From: Dehalococcoidia bacterium
GTDB lineage: Bacteria > Chloroflexota > Dehalococcoidia > SpSt-223
Direction of reading: 5' to 3'
Assembly (NCBI GenBank): GCA_025054935.1
Contig: JANWZD010000003.1
Span: forward strand, 124,001-188,000
DNA: 64,000 nucleotides
The notes under the pieces are model-generated. The model was not told the DNA's origin and searched no databases. It was given only the letters and a program-made list of their open reading frames with translations. Shown piece after piece: positions 4,451 through 25,510 of the stretch (positions are counted from its first letter, which is position 1; each line of letters begins with the position of its first letter). The position numbers and the translations under genes are program-made.

Positions 4451-7400
4451 TCAGCGCTGTCGTTGAGGCAGCAGCGCGCCCGCGGCATACTCGACGCGCA
4501 GCTCGCGCGCGTGCTCGTGCGTGTAGGTCAAGCGCAAGATGCCGACGCGCGCGTCGTACGTGAAGGCGGAAGCGGGCAACGGCTCCCCGGCGAGAAGGAC
4601 GCGCGTCGGGGGCGGGGCGGCGATCTCGATGCTGCCGGGCACCGACGCCGGCCCCCGGAGCTGATAGCGGAGCACGCCGGGCGCTGCCTCCCCAGTGACC
4701 GCGCTTGCTGTCCACAGCCAGCCTGCCTCTTGGCGCACGATAAACAGCTTGAGGCTCGCCGGCGGCAGGTCCGCAGCGATCGCGGTGTCGGCGAGAAACG
4801 TTGTCCCCGTGCCGGTGTCGCGCACGACGGCGGGGCGGTGCTGCAGCCCAAAATCGGTCAGCTTCGCGGTGATCGTTCGCCGGCTCGCTGAGCGGTTGAT
4901 GAAAGCGAGGTACGTCAGCCCCTCGACGCGGGTTGCGACCACTTCGGCGTTCGTGCCGAAGGAGAAGGCGGTTTGTCCGGCGAACGGCCGCAGGTGGACA
5001 AGCCACCGCCGCAGCTGCGCCACTGCCGGCTCCTCAAGCCGTGTCAGCGGGAACCCGAGGCCGGTCATCCCGCCGACAGCGAGGGCCGTCTCGATCCAGC
5101 GGAAGCGGAGGGAGGCAGCGTCGCCGTCGCCCTCCGCCGCCGCGCCGAGATGGGGGCGCTGGTTGAGGGCGATGCGCTGGAAGAGCGCGTAGTCGAAATG
5201 CTGGCGCAGCCCAGCGCGCGGAGCAGCGCGGTCAAAGGCGGGCGCTTGGTCCGCGAACCGAACTGCATGGACATAGGGATTGGCGAACGGAGGGACATAC
5301 CACCCGGCCTCGATGTACGCATTCGGCTTGGCCGCCCAGGCGTGTTCGGCTGTGAGACGGTACAACTCGGCCGCTTGGAGCGACGGGCGCGGCCGCTCTT
5401 TCGCGACGGCGGCGAGCGTCTCGCCGTAGCCGTCGATCCAGATCCCGTCGGCGTCATAGGTGACGACAATGTCGCGCACCAGCTCTGCCCACCAAGCGCG
5501 AACGGCGGGATTGCTGAAGTCGAACAGCCGCTTCTCGCTCGCGGTCGCGAGCGGAATGAACCAGGCGGGCTGCTGATCGACCAGCGGACGCAGGGCAGCA
5601 TGAGCAGCTGCACCGCTGTCGAGAAGCGGACCGGGGACGCCGAGGACAACGCGGATGCCGCGCAGATGGGCATAGTCGACGAGGGCGCGCATCCCGCTTG
5701 GAAAGCGCGTTCGGTCGACGGTCCGTCCGCTGTCGTCGACCCGCAGCCAGCCATGTTCGATCACGATCTGCCAGGGGCCGAGGTCGGCGAGGGCGGCGGC
5801 GATGAAGTCGATATGCTGGCGGAGAGCCGCTTCGTTCAGGTCGTTGCCGAGCGCGCGGGCAGCCAGCCATTGGTAGCGCACCCAGGAGGGAAGCGGCGGG
5901 TTCGGGTAGAGCGCAGCAATGGTGCGCCGATAGCCGCTCAGCATGATGTTCGGGTCGTCGGAGGGAGTGAAGTCAATGAAGAGGCGGGGCGAGAGCGCCT
6001 CCGCGGTCGGCCCCTGCGGCGGCAGGGTGATCTCATAGCCTAGCCGGATGCCGGCCGGCTCATTGGTCGGCCGGAGTTGGAAGGTGACAGCATGGTCGAC
6101 AGCGTCGAGCGTGGCGAGGACCGCTGCCCGCTTTCGCACCGGGTCGTTCAGAAGCAGCGGTTTGCCGGCATGCGCTTCGCCGGTGACGTGACCGTCCGCC
6201 ACCGCTCCTCGCCGCAGGTTGCCGTCGTCGGTCAAGTAGGTCGTCGCTGGGCCAAGATCGATCCAGCCGAGGTGCTCTCCGTCGAACAGGCGGAACGACG
6301 TGACGGCATGGCCTCCCGCCAGTCCGCGGACTGCAAGCTGTACGGTCAGAGCGCTTTTTCCGGCGTACAGTGTCGCGAGCAGCGTGACGCTCCCGCCGCT
6401 TTTGAGCGGGAGCTCCGCTTCCAGCTGGTGCCCTTCACCGAGGAAGGGGTCGCTGAAGGGCAAGCTGCGCGAGCGCGCCCCATCGGCGACGGTGTCGTCC
6501 TTGAGGCTGAGGCGGGCGCCGTTCTTCAGCCCGAGGGTGGGAACTGTCCACGCGCGGAGGTCGCCGGAGCGCGAACGGATAGTGAGCTGGCCGTGCTCGG
6601 GGCCGCCAATGCCGAGCGAGAGGTGAAGCCGCTCATTGGCGATGGAGGAGGTCTCCTGCGGGCGGGGTGCGCCCGCGCGCGGCGTCGCCGTCGCGCTGGC
6701 AGCCGGCGACGGAGGCGCCTCGGGTTCAAACGCTCTGGTTAAGTCGGTGCCGGGCAAGGCGTCCGGCCGGCTCATCCAGCGGGGAGCCGTCCTTGCATAC
6801 TGCTTGTAGAGCGGGCTGGCGCGCGCCTCGCGCTCCAAGTCGGCGGGCAGCCCCTCGCCGGTGAGGATCGCCTTGAGGTAGTCGGCAAGCAGGATGCCTT
6901 GGGTCACGCCTGTTGTCGCGTCGTAATGCATGACGCCGCGCTGGAACCGGAGATAGATAAAGGAGGAGTTCGCGGGGTCGACAGTCGGATGACTAGTCGG
7001 CAGCCCCCAGATCTCGAGCGCGAGATAGGGGAGGAGGGCGGCGCTGCCCTCCCCATGAGGATACGCCTCGTCGAGCGCGACGGTGGCAAGAAACGTCGCG
7101 TAGAAGTTGACGGGATGTCCGAGCCAGCGGTCGGGCGCCCGCTCGCGGATAAAGGGAATGACCGCCTGGTCGTAATCCGGGGAGCCGGGGGTCGGGGCGC
7201 CGGCAGTGACGGTGGGGTCGAAGGCGGGCAAGCTCGCGTTGTTGATGCGCGTGTAGGGCATGAGCCCGGGGTCGAGCAGATTGAGCAGGCCGACTGAACC
7301 ATCGGGCCGGCGCTGCATCACCTGCCGCTGGAAGATCTGCACGGTGGAGCCGAGCAGCGTGAACTCCCGCGACACCGGATAGCCGAAGGTCCGCAAGCCG

Positions 7401-7603
7401 CCGCGCCGCTGGAAGTAGTTCCAGAACGCGTCCGAGCTGATCCGAAATCCTGTCGCGGGAAAATACCGCGGGTCGGCGGCAGCGGCCGGCGTTCCGGTCG
7501 GCAGGGTCAGAGCGGCGAGGAGGATCAGCAGCGCGGCCAGCAGCAGGCCACGGTGAAGCGGCAGCGAAGCGAGCGATCGGCAGCCCGAGCCGAGGGCACG
7601 CAT
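4451..7603 (-). CDS. Large secreted glycoside hydrolase-like protein (GH36/GH31-type TIM barrel)
   Basis: A 1050-aa protein with a signal peptide: basic start, hydrophobic residues about 18-37, then an Ala-rich site. Residues about 45-240 match a domain common in Chloroflexota exoproteins (FPATG, FWNYFQRRGGL, FGYPVSREF, FQRQVMQ). A beta-sandwich follows, then a TIM barrel starting near YQWLAARALG. The barrel carries a strand ending YDADGIWIDGYGET, where GH31/GH36 enzymes place the catalytic Asp nucleophile, and then a C-terminal beta domain. Cleavage of an alpha-glycoside outside the cell is likely; the sugar is unknown. It ends 43 bp after the convergent-side neighbour start and is divergent from the flavoenzyme at 7724. 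Confidence 0.72.
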   Translation of the reverse strand: MRALGSGCRSLASLPLHRGLLLAALLILLAALTLPTGTPAAAADPRYFPATGFRISSDAFWNYFQRRGGLRTFGYPVSREFTLLGSTVQIFQRQVMQRRPDGSVGLLNLLDPGLMPYTRINNASLPAFDPTVTAGAPTPGSPDYDQAVIPFIRERAPDRWLGHPVNFYATFLATVALDEAYPHGEGSAALLPYLALEIWGLPTSHPTVDPANSSFIYLRFQRGVMHYDATTGVTQGILLADYLKAILTGEGLPADLEREARASPLYKQYARTAPRWMSRPDALPGTDLTRAFEPEAPPSPAASATATPRAGAPRPQETSSIANERLHLSLGIGGPEHGQLTIRSRSGDLRAWTVPTLGLKNGARLSLKDDTVADGARSRSLPFSDPFLGEGHQLEAELPLKSGGSVTLLATLYAGKSALTVQLAVRGLAGGHAVTSFRLFDGEHLGWIDLGPATTYLTDDGNLRRGAVADGHVTGEAHAGKPLLLNDPVRKRAAVLATLDAVDHAVTFQLRPTNEPAGIRLGYEITLPPQGPTAEALSPRLFIDFTPSDDPNIMLSGYRRTIAALYPNPPLPSWVRYQWLAARALGNDLNEAALRQHIDFIAAALADLGPWQIVIEHGWLRVDDSGRTVDRTRFPSGMRALVDYAHLRGIRVVLGVPGPLLDSGAAAHAALRPLVDQQPAWFIPLATASEKRLFDFSNPAVRAWWAELVRDIVVTYDADGIWIDGYGETLAAVAKERPRPSLQAAELYRLTAEHAWAAKPNAYIEAGWYVPPFANPYVHAVRFADQAPAFDRAAPRAGLRQHFDYALFQRIALNQRPHLGAAAEGDGDAASLRFRWIETALAVGGMTGLGFPLTRLEEPAVAQLRRWLVHLRPFAGQTAFSFGTNAEVVATRVEGLTYLAFINRSASRRTITAKLTDFGLQHRPAVVRDTGTGTTFLADTAIAADLPPASLKLFIVRQEAGWLWTASAVTGEAAPGVLRYQLRGPASVPGSIEIAAPPPTRVLLAGEPLPASAFTYDARVGILRLTYTHEHARELRVEYAAGALLPQRQR

Positions 7604-16838: not shown

Positions 16839-19800
16839 ATGCCAAAACGCGTCTTTGCTCAGAACATTGCCGAAGATCCTCTTTGGTACAAAGATGCTGT
16901 CATTTACGAGGTGTATGTCCGGTCGTTCCGCGATTCGAACGGCGATGGGACCGGAGATTTCCGTGGGCTGATCGAAAAGCTCGATTACATCCAAGATCTC
17001 GGCGTGACCGCACTCTGGGTGCTGCCGTTCTACCCCTCGCCGCTTCGTGATGGCGGCTATGATATTGCCGATTACCGCGGGGTCAAGCCGGAATACGGCA
17101 CGCTGCGCGATGTGAAGCAGTTCATCGACGAGGCGCACCGCCGCGGCATCCGCGTGATCTTTGAACTGGTTGCAAATCACACCTCAGACCAGCATCCGTG
17201 GTTTCAGCGTGCGCGCCGCGCCAAGCCGGGTTCAGTCTGGCGAGACTTCTATGTTTGGAGCGATACCCCTGACAAGTATCGCGAGGCGCGCATCATCTTC
17301 AAAGATTTCGAAACCTCCAACTGGGCGTGGGACCCTGTTGCGCGCGCCTACTACTGGCATCGCTTCTATTCCCATCAGCCTGACCTGAATTATGACAATC
17401 CCCGTGTCCAGCAGGAGATGATCAAGGTGGTTGACTATTGGCTGGACATGGGTGTCGATGGCTTGCGGCTTGACGCTGTTCCCTACCTCTATGAGCGTGA
17501 AGGGACAAATTGCGAAAACGTCCCCGAGACCCACGAATTTCTCAAGAAGCTGCGCCGTCATATCGATGAGAAATACGGCAACCGGATGCTGCTCGCCGAG
17601 GCAAATCAATGGCCAGAGGATGCAGTCGCCTACTTTGGAGAGGGCGATGAATGTCATATGGCCTTTCACTTTCCATTGATGCCGCGGCTCTTTATGGCGA
17701 TTCATCAGGAAGATCGATTTCCGATCACAGATATTCTCGAACGCACGCCGTCCATCCCGGACAATGCCCAATGGTGCGTCTTCCTTCGCAATCATGACGA
17801 ATTGACCCTCGAGATGCTGACGGACGAAGAACGCGACTATATGTATCGCGTATATGCGGAAGATCCGCAGATGCGGATCAATCTTGGAATTCGCCGTCGC
17901 CTTGCTCCGCTGATGCGCAATAACCGGCGAAGGATCGAACTGATGAACGCGCTGCTCTTCTCGATCATCGGCGCTCCGGTGATCTACTACGGTGATGAGA
18001 TTGGCATGGGCGACAACATCTATCTCGGCGACCGAGATGGTGTTCGAACGCCGATGCAGTGGAGCAGCGATCGTAACGCAGGATTTTCCGAGGGGAATGA
18101 GCAGCGGCTGTTTCTGCCCGTGATCGTCGACCCAGAATATCATTACCAGGCCGTGAATGTAGCGGTTCAGCAGAAGAACCCGCAGTCGCTGCTCAACTGG
18201 ATGAAGCAGCTGATTGCGTTGCGGAAGCAGTCAAAGGCGTTCAGCCGAGGCTCCCTGGAGGTCCTGCAGCCGAACAATCACCGGGTGCTCGCCTTTCTCC
18301 GCCGCTGGCAGGACGAGACCATCCTCGTCGTCGCGAACCTCTCACGGTTTGTGCAGTCGGTGAAACTAGACCTCGCCTCGTTCCGCGGCTGCGAGCTGGT
18401 CGAGATGTTTGGCGGAAGCACGCTTCCGCCCATTGGGGAAGAGCCGTATTTTATTACGCTCGGTCCTCACGGCTTCTACTGGTTTCAAGTAGCGGCTCCT
18501 CGGCCGGTTACGCTGGTCGAGCGCAGCCGCCGCGACCGCATCCCGACCCTGCAGGTCCGGAGCCGGATGGCAGAGCTCCTCGAACGGTCGAGCCCCCAAG
18601 TCGGCGCCGCCGACGCGATCATGCCCTACCTCTTGACCCACCATTGGTTTGGGCGGCGTCCCCTTGCCCTGCAGTCGGTCCAGTTTCAGGATGCGGTTCG
18701 TCTGCCCAAGGAGCAAGGGAATGACGCCTATCTCGCCATTGCGCGCCTCAACCCGCGCGAGGGGGATGCCGAGACGTGCGCCGTCCCGCTCGGCATTGCG
18801 CAGGGAGAGGCCGCTGCCGACTGGCAAGAGCGGCAGCCGGCAGCCGAGATCGCGCGCGTCGTTGCGAATGAGACGGGCGACCGCGGCCTGATCTATGACG
18901 GGCTCGCCGACCCGGCGATCCGCAAGGCGCTGCTCGAAACGGTGCTGCGCGAGCGTCGGCTGCGCGGGATGCATGGGGAGCTCGACGGAACGCTGACACG
19001 GCTTGGTCGACGGCGGGTCAGCCGAACCGCAGTCGAGGAGTCGCGCCTGGTCTTCGTCGATGCGCGCCACCGCGAAGTGATTTATGACGACCGGCTGGCG
19101 CTCAAACTGATTGGACGGCCTGATGTCGGCCTCCATCCCGAGGTGGAGATTGCCCCGCGCCTGCAGGAGAGCGGCTTTCGCGGCTTGGTGCCCGTCCTCG
19201 GCTGGATCGACTACTGCCAGTCCGACAGCGAGCCGATGACGATCGCAGTGCTCCGCGACTATCTCCCGGGGGCGTCCGACCTTTGGGAGATCCTCCGTCG
19301 TCAGGTCGCGGCGCTCTACCGCAGCCCCGATGCCGCGGCGATCGAAACGCTCGGGCGCACCACCCCGGCGCGGCTGCGCCTTGACGACCTTGGCAGGTCG
19401 CTCCCCCCGAGTGTCCCGACCGCCTTCGCGCCGATTGTCGAACTCGTTCGCCTTGCCGGCCGGCGGACGGTCGAGCTACACGTGGCCCTGGCCCGTCTTG
19501 GCGACGACCCGGCGGTTGCGCCGGAGCCGTTCACGGAGCATTATCAGGAGGCGCTGTTCTACGGGATGCTGAGCGCTGCCGAGCGCACTTTCTGGCGGAT
19601 TCGCCAGCTTGTCGCCGAGGCGGGCTCTGCCACCTCGGCGGCCCTTCTCGACCTCCTTGCCCATCATCGCGAGCTTCATCGCTTCTTCCGCCCTATCAAG
19701 GATCACCGGATCGACGCGCTCCGCATCCGCTGTCATGGCGACCTCCGCTTGGGCTCTTTCCTCAAGGTTGGAGACGACCTAGTGCTGGGCGACTTCGAGG

Positions 19801-20183
19801 GCGAGTTCCAACGGCCGTTGTCAGAGCGGCGCATCAAGCGCAGCCCAATCCGGGATGTTGCGAGTATGCTCGCTTCGCTTCACAACCTTTCCTATGCCGC
19901 CCTCGCCGACCCGGAGGCGGACGAGCCGTTTGGCGAAGCCGCCGCCCTCCGCGAGCCGCTCGCGCGCTTCACGCATCATTGGCTGCAACTCGCATTTCTG
20001 CAGGAATATGTGCCGACGGCGACCCGTCACGGGCTCGTGCCGAGTGACCCGACGCGCCTCCAGATCTTGATCGACACGTTCCTCCTCGAACGGTCGATGA
20101 CCGACCTGCGGAACACCTTGCGCAACCATCCTGACCGGGTCAGCGTGCCGGCGCGATCGATCTTGGATGTCCTGACCGGCTGA
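16839..20183 (+). CDS. treS: Trehalose synthase/maltokinase fusion (TreS-Mak)
   Basis: A 1114-aa bifunctional protein. Residues 1 to about 550 are a GH13 trehalose synthase that interconverts maltose and trehalose. The catalytic set is intact: GLRLDAVPYL (D212), LLAEANQW (E254) and FLRNHDEL (D320). Residues about 590-1114 are a maltokinase (Pep2-like) that phosphorylates maltose to maltose-1-phosphate with ATP; HGDLRLG (H966, D968) and GDFEGE carry the catalytic and metal residues. Such fusions occur in several phyla. ATG 16839 chosen because it gives the family start; an in-frame GTG at 16791 is an alternative. It converges on the kinase/OtsA-OtsB genes, placing two trehalose routes together. 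Confidence 0.95.
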   Translation: MPKRVFAQNIAEDPLWYKDAVIYEVYVRSFRDSNGDGTGDFRGLIEKLDYIQDLGVTALWVLPFYPSPLRDGGYDIADYRGVKPEYGTLRDVKQFIDEAHRRGIRVIFELVANHTSDQHPWFQRARRAKPGSVWRDFYVWSDTPDKYREARIIFKDFETSNWAWDPVARAYYWHRFYSHQPDLNYDNPRVQQEMIKVVDYWLDMGVDGLRLDAVPYLYEREGTNCENVPETHEFLKKLRRHIDEKYGNRMLLAEANQWPEDAVAYFGEGDECHMAFHFPLMPRLFMAIHQEDRFPITDILERTPSIPDNAQWCVFLRNHDELTLEMLTDEERDYMYRVYAEDPQMRINLGIRRRLAPLMRNNRRRIELMNALLFSIIGAPVIYYGDEIGMGDNIYLGDRDGVRTPMQWSSDRNAGFSEGNEQRLFLPVIVDPEYHYQAVNVAVQQKNPQSLLNWMKQLIALRKQSKAFSRGSLEVLQPNNHRVLAFLRRWQDETILVVANLSRFVQSVKLDLASFRGCELVEMFGGSTLPPIGEEPYFITLGPHGFYWFQVAAPRPVTLVERSRRDRIPTLQVRSRMAELLERSSPQVGAADAIMPYLLTHHWFGRRPLALQSVQFQDAVRLPKEQGNDAYLAIARLNPREGDAETCAVPLGIAQGEAAADWQERQPAAEIARVVANETGDRGLIYDGLADPAIRKALLETVLRERRLRGMHGELDGTLTRLGRRRVSRTAVEESRLVFVDARHREVIYDDRLALKLIGRPDVGLHPEVEIAPRLQESGFRGLVPVLGWIDYCQSDSEPMTIAVLRDYLPGASDLWEILRRQVAALYRSPDAAAIETLGRTTPARLRLDDLGRSLPPSVPTAFAPIVELVRLAGRRTVELHVALARLGDDPAVAPEPFTEHYQEALFYGMLSAAERTFWRIRQLVAEAGSATSAALLDLLAHHRELHRFFRPIKDHRIDALRIRCHGDLRLGSFLKVGDDLVLGDFEGEFQRPLSERRIKRSPIRDVASMLASLHNLSYAALADPEADEPFGEAAALREPLARFTHHWLQLAFLQEYVPTATRHGLVPSDPTRLQILIDTFLLERSMTDLRNTLRNHPDRVSVPARSILDVLTG

Positions 20184-20222: not shown

Positions 20223-21692
20223 CTAGCCGCGGGCGCTCTGGAGGACGGCGGGCGTCTCCGCCATGGCCGGGAGGAGGAGCGGCGGCTTGGCGGGGGCGCC
20301 GTCGATGGGCAAGAGGATGGAAAACGTCGTGCCGCGGCCGAGTTCGCTTTGACAGCTGACCTCGCCGCCATGCGCCTCGACGAGATATTTCACGATCGAC
20401 AGCCCGAGCCCGGCCCCGGCGGTGGCGCGCGGCCCGGCCTTGTGGACACGGTAGAACCGTTTCCAGATGTTCGGCAAATGCTCCGCGGGAATGCCTTCCC
20501 CCGTGTCAGCGACGGTAATCCGAGCGCGGTCGCCGAGGCGGTCGAGCCGAACGTCGATCCGTCCCCCTGCCGGCGTGAACTTGATCGCGTTGTCGAGCAG
20601 GTTAGCGACGACTTGCGCGAGCCGGCCTTCATCGCCGAGCACCTCGATCGGCTCGCTCACCTCGAGGGAGAGCAGTTGGCCTTGCGCATGCCGCTCCGCC
20701 TCGCGCACGACACGCGTCAGCAGCTCATCCAGCTTGACGCGGTTGCGCTCGACGACCAGCCCCGCTTCGACGCGCGCGAGGACCAGCAAGTCTGTTACGA
20801 GGCGGCTCAACCGCTCGACTTGGTGGCGCGCTTCCCGGATGCACTCGGCGCGGTCTGCCGGGTCGGAGACGCGGTCAAGGAGCTCAAGGTTCGTCCGCAA
20901 GGCGAGCAGCGGATTGCGCAATTCGTGCGAGGTATCGGCGACGAACTCGCGGTGCATCCGCAGCGTGTCCTCGACAGTGAGCAGCAGATGATTGATCGTG
21001 CGCGCCAGTTCGCCGACTTCATCGGATTGGGTGGACGGCTTCAGCCGCTGACTGAAATCGCGCCCGGCCGCGATCATCGCCGCTTGGTGGGCGAACGCCT
21101 TCAGCGGCGACAGCCCTTGCAGAGCGACAAACCAGCCGACCGCACCCGAGACCAGAACGGCGCCGGCGCCGAGGGTGATCAGCAGCGTCCGCAGGTTCTC
21201 GATCAGCTCGAAAAGCGGCTCGCGCGATTGGCCGACAACCATCACCCCGATGACCGGGCCGGTCGCGCCGCTGGAGCGGATCGGCGCGGTCAGGATCCGG
21301 ATCGGCCGTCCGCCGACGTAGTTCTCGGCGAGCGCTGTGCGGCCCATCAAGGCGGCTTGGAAAGCGGCGTTGTCGACCGAAAGATGCTTCTCGTTCAGCG
21401 TCTCTGAGGCGGCTACGACAGCTCCGGTCGGGTCCATCACTTGGACGAAGATCCCCGGCGCGTCGATGGAGGAGAGCGGACGGAGGTCAAGGTAGGCGAG
21501 GTCAGAGGAGGTGAGGACAATCCCCCGCGGGAGGATCGTCAGCCGCACCTGCTCGGCGCGCACTTCGAGACGGCGGTCCATCTCGGCGCCGAGGCTCTGG
21601 GCTGCCGTCGCGAGGATCGTCACTCCCAGCACGGCGATGGTGATCACCATCAGAATGCTGTAGGTGAGCGCGAGGCGCAGGCGCAGGGACAC
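20223..21692 (-). CDS. Sensor histidine kinase partner of the OtsA-OtsB-regulator protein
   Basis: A 489-aa membrane kinase. One transmembrane segment (about 8-30), an extracytoplasmic sensor domain (about 35-165), a second segment (about 168-190) and a HAMP region (about 192-245) come first. HisKA follows with FVADTSHELRNPLLAL (phospho-acceptor H256) and then the HATPase domain (LLDNAIKFTP, DTGEGIP, GLGLSIVK). It starts with GTG only 3 bp after the stop of the OtsA-OtsB-response-regulator gene, the usual spacing of a cognate two-component pair. The signal sensed is unknown; osmotic or desiccation stress is inference from the trehalose neighbours. Confidence 0.92.
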   Translation of the reverse strand: MSLRLRLALTYSILMVITIAVLGVTILATAAQSLGAEMDRRLEVRAEQVRLTILPRGIVLTSSDLAYLDLRPLSSIDAPGIFVQVMDPTGAVVAASETLNEKHLSVDNAAFQAALMGRTALAENYVGGRPIRILTAPIRSSGATGPVIGVMVVGQSREPLFELIENLRTLLITLGAGAVLVSGAVGWFVALQGLSPLKAFAHQAAMIAAGRDFSQRLKPSTQSDEVGELARTINHLLLTVEDTLRMHREFVADTSHELRNPLLALRTNLELLDRVSDPADRAECIREARHQVERLSRLVTDLLVLARVEAGLVVERNRVKLDELLTRVVREAERHAQGQLLSLEVSEPIEVLGDEGRLAQVVANLLDNAIKFTPAGGRIDVRLDRLGDRARITVADTGEGIPAEHLPNIWKRFYRVHKAGPRATAGAGLGLSIVKYLVEAHGGEVSCQSELGRGTTFSILLPIDGAPAKPPLLLPAMAETPAVLQSARG

Positions 21693-21695
21693 GGG

Positions 21696-24635
21696 TCACT
21701 CCTCGCGCAGGGCGTAGCCGTAGCCGCGGACCGTCTGGATCACCCGCGGGTGCTGGTCGGCTTCGAGCTTCTTCCGGAGGTCTTTGATTGCGTTATCGAC
21801 AAAACTGGGCTCGCCGGAGAAATCCTCGCCCCAGAGGTGCTGCGAGATCTGCTCGCGGGTGAGCACACGACGAGGGTTGCGGAGGAAAAGCCGCAACAGC
21901 TCAAACTCCCGCGGGGTCAACTTCAACAGTTCCCCGTCTCGCCGCGCCTCATGGGTTCTCGTGTCGAGGACGATGCCGAGAAACTCGAGCGTCGTCTCCG
22001 AGACGATTTGCGAGCGCCGCAGGAGGGCCCGCACGCGAGCCAGCAGTTCATCGAGGGCAAACGGCTTGACGAGGTAGTCATCGGCGCCGCGATCAAGACC
22101 CGCGATCCGGTCGGGCAGAGTGTCGCGCGCCGACAAGATGAGGATCGGGGTCATGATCCCCTTCTCCCGCAGCCGCTGGCAGACGTCAAGCCCGTTGATG
22201 CCGGGCAGCATGACATCGAGGACAATGAGATCCGGTGAGCCCTTGCTGACCGCCTCGAGCGCGGTTTCCCCATCGAGCGCGGTTGTCACTTCATAGCCTT
22301 CGAGCGCGAGCGCCCGGCGCAGGCCGCTTAGCACAGCCGGGTCATCATCGACGACAAGGATCCGCGCCGTCGGCGCCGACCGTTCGCGCGGCGTCTCGCC
22401 GTTCAGCCGCGCTTCCGGATCGGAGCGCGAGGCTTCGATCATCGTCTCAAGGAGCGCGCGCGCTTCGGTGAAGTCGCGCAGCCGGTAGGTCTCGCCTTTG
22501 AGGGCGTTGCCCACCCGAACGATGAAGGCAGAAGGCGGGAGGATCCCGAACAGCTCTTCGTCGGGCCAATCATCCCCGAGGGCGATAATAAACTCCCACT
22601 CGCCTCGGGCAAGGAAGTGCAGCCCCGCTCGTCCCTTGTGGATGCCGGCGGTCGTCACCTCGACGACCTTGTTGGCGAGCGTGACTTGGAACTGATGCTC
22701 GCTTGAGATGGCGCGCAGCTCGGCGGCGAGGTCGTTGACGACGGTCTCGGCGCGGTCAGGGTCGGCAAGGCGGTAATGCCAGACGAGCGCTCCTTCTTTC
22801 TCCTCGATGAAAGAGCCGGGTAGGCGCTCAACCGCCTTGGTCAGGATCGGGCGGACGACCTCGCGCCATTGATCGGCGAGCGGCGCCATCGCCACCCAGT
22901 CGCGGCCGCGCTCGCGGATCCAGAGGCCGTGCTCAGCGGCGAGGGCGAGGTCCAGTTCGCCGAACCAGTATTCGAGATCATGGCGGCTGCGTCCGCTCAC
23001 GATCACGACTTCGTTCCGAGGATCGGCGCACAAGTTAGCGAGGATGCGCAGCAGGTCGCTGTCCGGCCACGCCCGGCCTGGCGTGTCGGCGAACGGCACG
23101 AGCGTTCCGTCGTAGTCGAGGAAAAGCAGCCGCTTTTTCGCCGCCTTGTAGGCCTCGATTAGGTCCTGGCTCGGCTGGAAATTAAAGTCGGCTGCCTGCA
23201 CCTTCTCGGCTTCCTTGCGCGCCGCGATCAGCGCATTGACAAAGGCACTGCCCCAGCGGACAACGTCATTCTCCTGAATGTGGCGACGCATGTTGGCGTT
23301 GCGGATCGCCTGCTCCTCGAGCGGCATCTCGAGTGCCCGCTTGATCGCCTGCGCCACTTCCTGCTCGTCATTCGGGTTGACGATAATCGCGCCGGTCAAC
23401 TCGTCTGCTGCCCCGGCCATCTCGCTCAGGATAAGAACGCCGCTGTTGTCCGGGCGGCTCGCGATGTACTCCTTCGAAACGAGGTTCATGCCGTCGCGGA
23501 GCGGGGTGATGAGCGCCACGTCGGCGACGCTGTAGAGCGCCACCAGCGCCTCGAACGGCACGCCGCGATACTGGTAGAGGATCGGCGTCCACGCGAGGGT
23601 TCCAAACTCCCCGTTGATCTGGCTGACAAGTTGCTCGATCTGAGTTTTCAGCTCGGCATATTTCGTCACGACATCCCGCGAGGGGACGACAACTAAAACG
23701 AGCACAATCTTGCCGCGCCACTCGGGATGGTTCTGGAGAAAAGCGCGATAGGCATACAGCCGATTGAGAATGCCCTTCGTATAGTCCAGCCGGTCGAGGG
23801 AAAGAATAATCTTCCGATCGCCAAGTAAGCCGAGCAGCGCCTGCCGCTCACGCTCGACGGCCGCATCTCGGGTCGCATCTTCGAACTTGCGAAAGTTGAT
23901 CCCCATCGGGAACGCGCCGACAGTGACAATGCGGTTCTCGACATGGAGCCGGTTATCGACCGCCTCAATGCCGAGGATCCGTTCGACCGACTCGAGGAAA
24001 TGGTCGGTATAGCTCTCGTTATGAAACCCGACGAGATCGGCGCCGAGCATCCCCTCGAGGATGGCGCGTCGCCACTCATTGGGCAGGAGGCGGAAAACGT
24101 CGACCGAGGGGAAAGGAATATGCAGGAAAAAGCCGATTGCCAGCCGCGGAAAGCGCTCCCGGAGCATCGCCGGCAGCAGCATCAGCTGGTAATCGTGGAC
24201 CCACACGATATCGTCCGGCCGGATTACCTCGAGGACCGCGGTTCGGAACAGCTCGTTGATCGCTTTGTACTCCTCCCATTGCTGGTCATCGAAGGTTGCT
24301 TGGGAGGCGAAGTAGTGGAAGAGCGGCCAAATTGTCGAATTGCAGAAACCAAAGTAGAAGGAGTCGATTTGCTCTCGACTAAGAAAAACAGGATAGGCGT
24401 TAAAATCATCGCGCGCTTGCCGGCGGAGCCGTTCCCGCTCCGCCGCTCCTTCAATCGCCGCTCCCGGCCAGCCAATCCAGATATGGTCGCTGAACTCGCT
24501 CGGCGACGAGCCGAGCACTTCGAGATACGTTCGCATTCCCGAAGCCAAGCCGCCGTCGCTCGGCTGGATCGAAAACTGTCCTCGCTCTTGTTTAACGCTG
24601 AACGGAAGCCGGTTTGAGACAATAACCAGCCGCAT
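21696..24635 (-). CDS. Trehalose-6-P synthase / trehalose-6-P phosphatase / OmpR-type response regulator triple fusion
   Basis: One uninterrupted 979-aa frame. Residues 1 to about 485 are GT20 OtsA, making trehalose-6-P from UDP-glucose and glucose-6-P (SDGGLASG, VHDYQL, HIPFPS, SLDRLDYTKG). Residues about 497-735 are HAD OtsB, with LDYDGTL (D507, D509), VSGRSR, AEHG, HKGRA and GDDWPDE. Residues about 756-875 are a receiver domain: acidic D763-D765, phospho-acceptor D807, S835 and K857. Residues about 885-979 are a PhoB/OmpR winged helix ending VRGYGYAL. Start ATG 24635 follows GGAAGGAGCATCC. The linker (about 736-755) has no convincing internal ribosome-binding site. All three modules look complete. 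OtsA-OtsB fusions are known; the fused regulator is the oddity. Confidence 0.93.
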   Translation of the reverse strand: MRLVIVSNRLPFSVKQERGQFSIQPSDGGLASGMRTYLEVLGSSPSEFSDHIWIGWPGAAIEGAAERERLRRQARDDFNAYPVFLSREQIDSFYFGFCNSTIWPLFHYFASQATFDDQQWEEYKAINELFRTAVLEVIRPDDIVWVHDYQLMLLPAMLRERFPRLAIGFFLHIPFPSVDVFRLLPNEWRRAILEGMLGADLVGFHNESYTDHFLESVERILGIEAVDNRLHVENRIVTVGAFPMGINFRKFEDATRDAAVERERQALLGLLGDRKIILSLDRLDYTKGILNRLYAYRAFLQNHPEWRGKIVLVLVVVPSRDVVTKYAELKTQIEQLVSQINGEFGTLAWTPILYQYRGVPFEALVALYSVADVALITPLRDGMNLVSKEYIASRPDNSGVLILSEMAGAADELTGAIIVNPNDEQEVAQAIKRALEMPLEEQAIRNANMRRHIQENDVVRWGSAFVNALIAARKEAEKVQAADFNFQPSQDLIEAYKAAKKRLLFLDYDGTLVPFADTPGRAWPDSDLLRILANLCADPRNEVVIVSGRSRHDLEYWFGELDLALAAEHGLWIRERGRDWVAMAPLADQWREVVRPILTKAVERLPGSFIEEKEGALVWHYRLADPDRAETVVNDLAAELRAISSEHQFQVTLANKVVEVTTAGIHKGRAGLHFLARGEWEFIIALGDDWPDEELFGILPPSAFIVRVGNALKGETYRLRDFTEARALLETMIEASRSDPEARLNGETPRERSAPTARILVVDDDPAVLSGLRRALALEGYEVTTALDGETALEAVSKGSPDLIVLDVMLPGINGLDVCQRLREKGIMTPILILSARDTLPDRIAGLDRGADDYLVKPFALDELLARVRALLRRSQIVSETTLEFLGIVLDTRTHEARRDGELLKLTPREFELLRLFLRNPRRVLTREQISQHLWGEDFSGEPSFVDNAIKDLRKKLEADQHPRVIQTVRGYGYALREE

Positions 24636-24919
24636 GGATGCTCCTTCCGTTGCTCTCAGACCCCAAAGCGGTGCACACTCCAAGGATACCGCCTTGAAGT
24701 GCTTGCCGAACAACTGGCGCAGAAACTGCGAGGATGAGGGAGGATGAGGAGAGAGCGCGCGAGAGTCGCCCGGGCCCGATGCCGATTGCATCGGCGCACG
24801 GCCAGAAGCGCCTATCCCCTTGCGCTTCTCCGCTCGCGGCGACGAGGCGGCGCGCGCTTCGCTCCTGCAGCGCGCCGGACGCCTGACCGGCGCTCGTCAC
24901 GCGGGGAGGCGGGGGTGCC

Positions 24920-25510
24920 GTGCGCGTGATCTTCCAGTCCGGGAGCGCAGGGTGGCTCCTCGCCGGGGCGGTTACGGTCCTCATCACCGCGGGGATGGCT
25001 GTCGGTGCCGCTGCTGTCGAGGCGCGGCCTGCGGGGGTGACGGTTCCAGGGCTCTGGCAAGGGGAGGGATGCTTCTGCCATGGAGAGCCATACCCCGGGA
25101 CCGTGATCCTCTCCTCGGCGATCGAGGCGCCCCCGACCGTGACGGCGGGAACGACAGTCTCGGTCACGCTCTCGCTAACGGGCACCTCCGACCAGCAGGG
25201 GCCGCTTGGGCTTGGCGGGGGGTTCAATCTCTCCGCCAGCCGCGGGCTCCTTGCGCCCGGGCCGACCGCGCGCTACGTTGCTGACAGCATGGAACTAACC
25301 CACCTCACTCGGACCGCGACAAGCTGGACGGTGCACTGGACCGCGCCGCCGACGAACGGCCCAGCGCAGCTGACCGCAGCGCTTCTCCTCGCTAATGGAG
25401 ACGGCAAGACGAGCTTCGACAGTTGGACGATCATCAGCCGCACCGTTCAGGTGGTCGGCGGCGTCGAACTGCGCTTCGTTCCCGTTGCCGCCCTCGCGGC
25501 CGTGCCGTGA
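24920..25510 (+). CDS. Secreted Reeler-like/choice-of-anchor V-type protein
   Basis: A 196-aa protein with an N-terminal signal or anchor segment (about residues 12-34). After it, GEGCFCHGEP gives a CxCH motif close to a haem-type CxxCH but one residue short. A beta-sandwich then carries GGFNLSASRG, THLTRTATSWTVHW and TAPP, the pattern of bacterial Reeler/choice-of-anchor V domains. Such proteins are exported; their role is mostly unknown. GTG start 24920. The 284-bp gap to the divergent trehalose gene holds no other recognisable gene. Whether the cysteines bind metal or haem cannot be told. Confidence 0.6.
   Translation: MRVIFQSGSAGWLLAGAVTVLITAGMAVGAAAVEARPAGVTVPGLWQGEGCFCHGEPYPGTVILSSAIEAPPTVTAGTTVSVTLSLTGTSDQQGPLGLGGGFNLSASRGLLAPGPTARYVADSMELTHLTRTATSWTVHWTAPPTNGPAQLTAALLLANGDGKTSFDSWTIISRTVQVVGGVELRFVPVAALAAVP

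Follow-up and report, generated by a model that had tools for sequence, protein, structure and literature searches.

As a rule, an enzyme and the regulator that controls its gene are distinct proteins. The locus described here raises the question of whether a trehalose-6-phosphate synthase, a trehalose-6-phosphate phosphatase and a DNA-binding response regulator (RR) are encoded as one protein and, if so, how such a protein would work. The window is the whole stretch of DNA that was analysed (64,000 nucleotides), and all positions refer to it unless a locus is named. The gene and its modules are given below, with the support for each in brackets.

21696..24635, minus strand: otsAB-RR fusion gene, 979 aa (ORF, Pfam, NCBIfam, orthologs)
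23229..24632, minus strand: GT20 trehalose-6-phosphate synthase module, aa 2-469 (Pfam PF00982 and structure match)
22431..23123, minus strand: HAD trehalose-6-phosphate phosphatase module, aa 505-735 (Pfam PF02358; NF011071 to aa 735)
22371..22430, minus strand: linker between the modules, aa 736-755 (disordered and under weak constraint, with the frame preserved in three species)
22020..22370, minus strand: REC receiver domain, aa 756-872, with phospho-acceptor D807 (Pfam and motif residues)
21699..21935, minus strand: OmpR/PhoB-type winged-helix DNA-binding domain, aa 901-979 (Pfam)

Translation of the window from 24635 to 21696 on the minus strand gave a stop-free open reading frame of 979 aa. 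Along this frame, Pfam detected four domains with scores well over their cut-offs: Glyco_transf_20 (aa 2-469, 527 bits), Trehalose_PPase (aa 505-697, 159 bits), Response_reg (aa 759-869, 112 bits) and Trans_reg_C (aa 902-976, 89.7 bits for a cut-off of 26.2). Residues 1-735 were covered by the NCBIfam equivalog of bifunctional OtsAB, NF011071, with 975.4 bits for a cut-off of 634; positions 2-727 of the 729 of the profile were matched, corresponding to a full-length hit. Compared with known bifunctional OtsABs (NF011071, PRK14501), this part of the protein is a full member. The GT20 motifs SNRLP, HDYQL, HIPFPS, DRLDYTKG, VPSR and RDGMNLVSKEY and the phosphatase motifs DYDGT, HKG and GDDxxDE are present, as are the acidic pair D764/D765, the phospho-Asp D807, S835 and K857 of the REC domain. 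By the membership test the enzyme half is a true OtsAB and, by sequence, the regulator half is a true OmpR/PhoB response regulator.

The start codon was assigned to the ATG at 24635, preceded by the Shine-Dalgarno sequence GGAAGG and kept in 3 of 3 species. A longer frame from 24791 was rejected because the upstream frame and sequence are unconserved, whereas the Shine-Dalgarno sequence and the ATG at 24635 are conserved. The first-pass annotation had described a single frame running from GT20 through the phosphatase and REC into the winged helix, with all modules intact. Both claims were borne out, the former by the stop-free 979 aa, the Pfam matches and three same-length orthologs, the latter by complete Pfam and NCBIfam domains and by the enzyme motifs and REC residues listed above. 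We consider it confirmed that the predicted fusion is a real single frame, encoding OtsAB, a linker of about 20 aa and a complete OmpR/PhoB-type response regulator.

The sample of the fusion consists of three species of one genus of uncultured Chloroflexota, all apparently metagenome assemblies; these are all the species examined for the whole order. In the two other species, represented by separate assemblies, the orthologous proteins are 91% and 81% identical to that of the window, and the frame is exactly 2940 nt in all three, with no indel anywhere. Synonymous sites are near saturation between the species (dS about 1). The OtsA, OtsB, REC and winged-helix domains have dN/dS values well below 1 (dN 0.04-0.19, dS about 0.8-1.7), indicating that all four are under purifying selection; the linker is much looser than the four domains in this three-species comparison. 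Between species, 25 to 35 of 69 linker bases differ, yet neither indel nor stop is found, and linker protein identity is only 25-65% while length and frame are kept. A frameshift or stop in the linker, suspected at first pass, is excluded in practice by the in-frame junction of the two other species despite these substitutions.

AlphaFold modelled each domain of the fusion with confidence (mean pLDDT 89), and the GT20 part compares with solved trehalose-6-phosphate synthases at a target-normalised TM (TMt) of about 0.95. The pLDDT drops below 50 at linker residues 746-753, and the overall pTM is 0.60. The domains are thus predicted to fold well, with an uncertain mutual placement and no fixed interface.

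The fusion is followed by a kinase gene:

20223..21692, minus strand: membrane sensor histidine kinase with HAMP, HisKA and HATPase domains, beginning 3 nt past the fusion stop

The Shine-Dalgarno-like GAGGAG of the kinase gene overlaps the last codons of the regulator, and GAGGAGTGA, a conserved sequence at the regulator end, would act as the kinase ribosome site. Adjacency does not prove that the kinase pairs with the fused regulator; we infer this pairing.

OmpR/PhoB-type regulators bind repeats with a period of 10-11 bp, the pho box being the classic case. Upstream of the fusion lies one such candidate:

24733..24748, minus strand: candidate operator, direct repeat CTCATC-N4-CTCATC with a 10-bp period, at the same distance in three species

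The 200 bp before the fusion start are diverged beyond alignment except for the ribosome site, a GGTAT(C/T)CTT box and this direct repeat. The repeat stands at the same place in 3 of 3 species, at about -92 to -115, as CTCATCCTCCCTCATC, CTCATCAAACCCTCATC and CTCATCGTTTCGTCATC, one per species, with the consensus CTCATC-N4/5-(C/G)TCATC. It was noticed by inspection first and shuffle-tested second: among 20,000 dinucleotide-preserving shuffle sets, not one produced a same-core repeat at matching positions in the three species, a figure to be read as indicative. Elsewhere in the genome, most matches fall within long frames; the repeat before the fusion was the only hit observed at orthologous positions in the three species. 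The treS-mak gene described below was considered as a second target and rejected, no such repeat being found upstream of it in the window. It is also conceivable that the repeat serves a different regulator, or the divergent gene starting at 24920 (plus strand), whose upstream intergenic region is the one that contains the candidate operator. That gene (24920-25510, 196 aa) begins with a signal-peptide-like segment, matches nothing in Pfam, and is also divergent in the sister species. The GGTAT(C/T)CTT box (24680-24700), about 60 nt before the start in all three species, is a possible -10 region.

The metabolic setting includes a second fusion gene, convergent with the kinase gene:

16839..20183, plus strand: TreS-maltokinase fusion, TreS-Mak (Pfam, NCBIfam; the start is an ATG conserved in three species)

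The maltokinase half of TreS-Mak is full length and scores 321 for an NCBIfam cut-off of 375. In the genome, the only GT20 gene found is that of the fusion, TreY has no match above cut-off, and GlgE is present. With a sole GT20 gene, no TreY match, GlgE and the adjacent TreS-Mak, the enzyme half is probably needed and probably active. Trehalose made by OtsAB can be converted through TreS-Mak and GlgE into alpha-glucan (pathway reviewed in PMC11046441), and TreS-Mak is the likely consumer of the trehalose made by the predicted OtsAB half. Elsewhere in the window (4451-7603, minus strand), a 1050-aa protein has only weak GH31/GHL glycoside hydrolase matches and is possibly a diverged glycosidase.

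The fusion was searched for in the class (393 genomes), the phylum (400), another Chloroflexota class (29), Bacteroidota (395) and Omnitrophota (145), for a total of more than 1,400 genome searches; the samples overlap, the sets are incomplete and some genomes were searched twice. No full-length fusion was detected outside the genus in these partly overlapping samples. Among the 73 OtsAB loci outside the genus with both enzyme domains in one frame, none carries a response regulator; these standalone OtsABs are about 730-790 aa long and, unlike the fusion, lack a regulator. The first-pass proviso that the two halves might always be separate genes in relatives holds outside the genus, where none was found fused, and fails inside it, where all 3 species carry the fusion.

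The nearest free regulator (genome G088, locus L054) is 69% identical to the fused one and is directly followed by a homologous histidine kinase, in the same order and with the same tight spacing as at the fusion locus. Unlike the fused regulator it is free-standing, with its own start codon and no OtsAB attached or adjacent. In the regulator tree, the fused regulators group with that of G088 and with an orphan regulator of the sister species (support 100/99); in both trees the fusions are monophyletic. The orphan (L105, 605-1279) is 63% identical to the fused regulator; no kinase was found in the fetched flank, and no close counterpart was seen in the window's genome. The order regulator-kinase is common among the related regulators fetched. 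Because the nearest free regulator also directly precedes its kinase, otsAB would have been joined in frame to an existing regulator-kinase operon. The simplest history is one event in the ancestor of the genus, fusing otsAB to the first gene of that operon: otsAB would have been placed before it, its stop and the regulator start lost, and the former gap turned into the linker.

In the plasmids searched, only an adjacent, unfused arrangement of otsAB and a response regulator was detected, in Spirosoma. A Spirosoma oryzicola plasmid (L062, 4989-9472) encodes otsAB, a response regulator and a histidine kinase in the order of the fusion locus. Here the genes are separate, with about 200 bp between otsAB and the regulator, which is 37% identical to the fused one and distant in the tree; this neighbourhood is probably an independent association. 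In two Bacteroidota genomes, a histidine kinase frame lies directly upstream of otsAB (L081, 1-1167; L090, 1-1332).

Receiver domains fused to metabolic enzymes are known, for instance with a BcsA-like glycosyltransferase in Methanobacteriaceae, and have a narrow phyletic range (PMC5847659). Like these, the present fusion puts a metabolic enzyme and a receiver into one protein of narrow range; it differs from them in also keeping the winged-helix output and in that its enzyme covers the two-step trehalose pathway. In the actinobacterial NnaR, a HemD-like domain without HemD activity is joined to a DNA-binding domain (PMC6277429), with no receiver domain (PMC12632262). NnaR shares with the fusion an enzyme-derived N-terminal part and a DNA-binding part in one protein, whereas the fusion has a REC domain, intact active-site residues and an adjacent kinase gene. 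In Pfam, the fusion shows a GT20/HAD enzyme and a full REC domain instead of a HemD domain without receiver. The first-pass annotation knew of no described OtsAB version with a response regulator, and none was found in the open-access papers searched. OtsAB with a full DNA-binding response regulator thus appears to be a new combination, fusions of REC to metabolic enzymes being already known.

Taking together the fusion frame, domains, conservation, operon layout, phylogeny and conserved repeat, all read from the sequence, we consider it fairly probable that this is a trifunctional protein of single origin, in which a working OtsAB is flexibly tethered to a working response regulator, with kinase-driven autoregulation through the repeat. 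From these data we infer the activities of the modules, the kinase pairing, phosphotransfer, binding to the repeat, the sign of regulation and the signal. The membrane kinase encoded directly downstream would sense a signal and phosphorylate D807. The regulator module would then dimerise and bind the direct repeat of 10-11 bp that precedes its own operon, altering transcription of otsAB-RR-HK. Each regulator molecule would carry one enzyme, working alongside it in a modular manner, and the trehalose would then probably feed TreS-Mak and GlgE. The earlier expectation that enzyme and regulator levels are locked together stands, since a single frame imposes a fixed 1:1 ratio. The neighbouring kinase gene, the free regulator-kinase pair as ancestor, the confinement to one genus and the conserved direct repeat are additions to that first-pass picture.

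Rather than working side by side, the modules might affect each other, phosphorylation or DNA binding acting on trehalose synthesis, or occupancy of the enzyme by substrate or product acting on phosphorylation or DNA binding, as in a metabolite-gated regulator of the trigger-enzyme type. This reading, which we regard as unlikely, is favoured by the single polypeptide with all active-site residues kept and by the retention of the fusion in the genus. Receiver domains on metabolic enzymes have moreover been described as placing activity under environmental control (PMC5847659), and in NnaR an enzyme-like and a DNA-binding domain occur together (PMC6277429). However, the disordered linker and the pTM leave no fixed interface predicted, and the poor conservation of the linker speaks mildly against it. 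The first-pass suggestion that phosphorylation or DNA binding alters the enzyme, or that substrate occupancy alters transcription, is for these structural reasons unsupported so far. A self-contained sensor-effector, where phosphorylation state, DNA binding and trehalose-6-phosphate flux mutually influence each other within one polypeptide, is a shade less likely again.

That the regulator acts as a separate piece, released by internal initiation or by proteolysis of the linker, so that the fusion would be a translational coupling device only, is quite improbable. The disordered, fast-evolving linker would suit it, as would M732, the sole nearby conserved methionine before the regulator, kept in 3 of 3 species. 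Against it, no conserved Shine-Dalgarno sequence precedes M732 in the three species compared, no start codon is found close to where REC begins, either in the window or in genome G002, and no excess of synonymous-site conservation is seen at the OtsAB/RR junction in the three species. A separate regulator product would thus have no visible start site. The single promoter-like match inside otsB is unconserved among species, and a hidden internal start or promoter was rejected on these grounds.

Near-neutral loss of a stop codon that then persisted by drift, the fusion bringing no functional benefit, is very doubtful. The confinement of the fusion to one genus agrees with it, a narrow range being typical of enzyme-regulator fusions (PMC5847659); however, with dS about 1, linker length and frame are exact in three species, which indicates that a broken junction is selected against. 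The exact frame is equally expected if the regulator simply lost its separate start. Loss of the original activity of one module, for example a dead enzyme half used as a sensor in the manner of the HemD-like half of NnaR (PMC6277429), is highly improbable given the sole GT20 gene found, intact motifs, strong purifying selection and downstream pathway genes. Finally, although the relatives are metagenome-assembled genomes, an artefact of assembly or sequencing that merged two adjacent genes is virtually excluded, and neither a frameshift nor a missed stop nor a chimeric contig is tenable, because the same 2940-nt frame recurs in three species from separate assemblies, 81-91% identical, whose linkers have diverged without leaving the frame.

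In the preferred reading of a modular trifunctional protein, what appears to be the only enzyme making new trehalose is tied covalently, 1:1, to a full two-component transcription factor. The kinase and candidate operator next door make this unusual feedback design testable. It raises the questions of whether the amounts of enzyme and regulator are locked on purpose and whether a response regulator can be gated directly by a metabolic enzyme. If crosstalk within the protein were true, the activity of a two-component regulator would be read directly by, or from, its attached metabolic enzyme. The fusion is also a naturally occurring template on which flux could be coupled to transcription.
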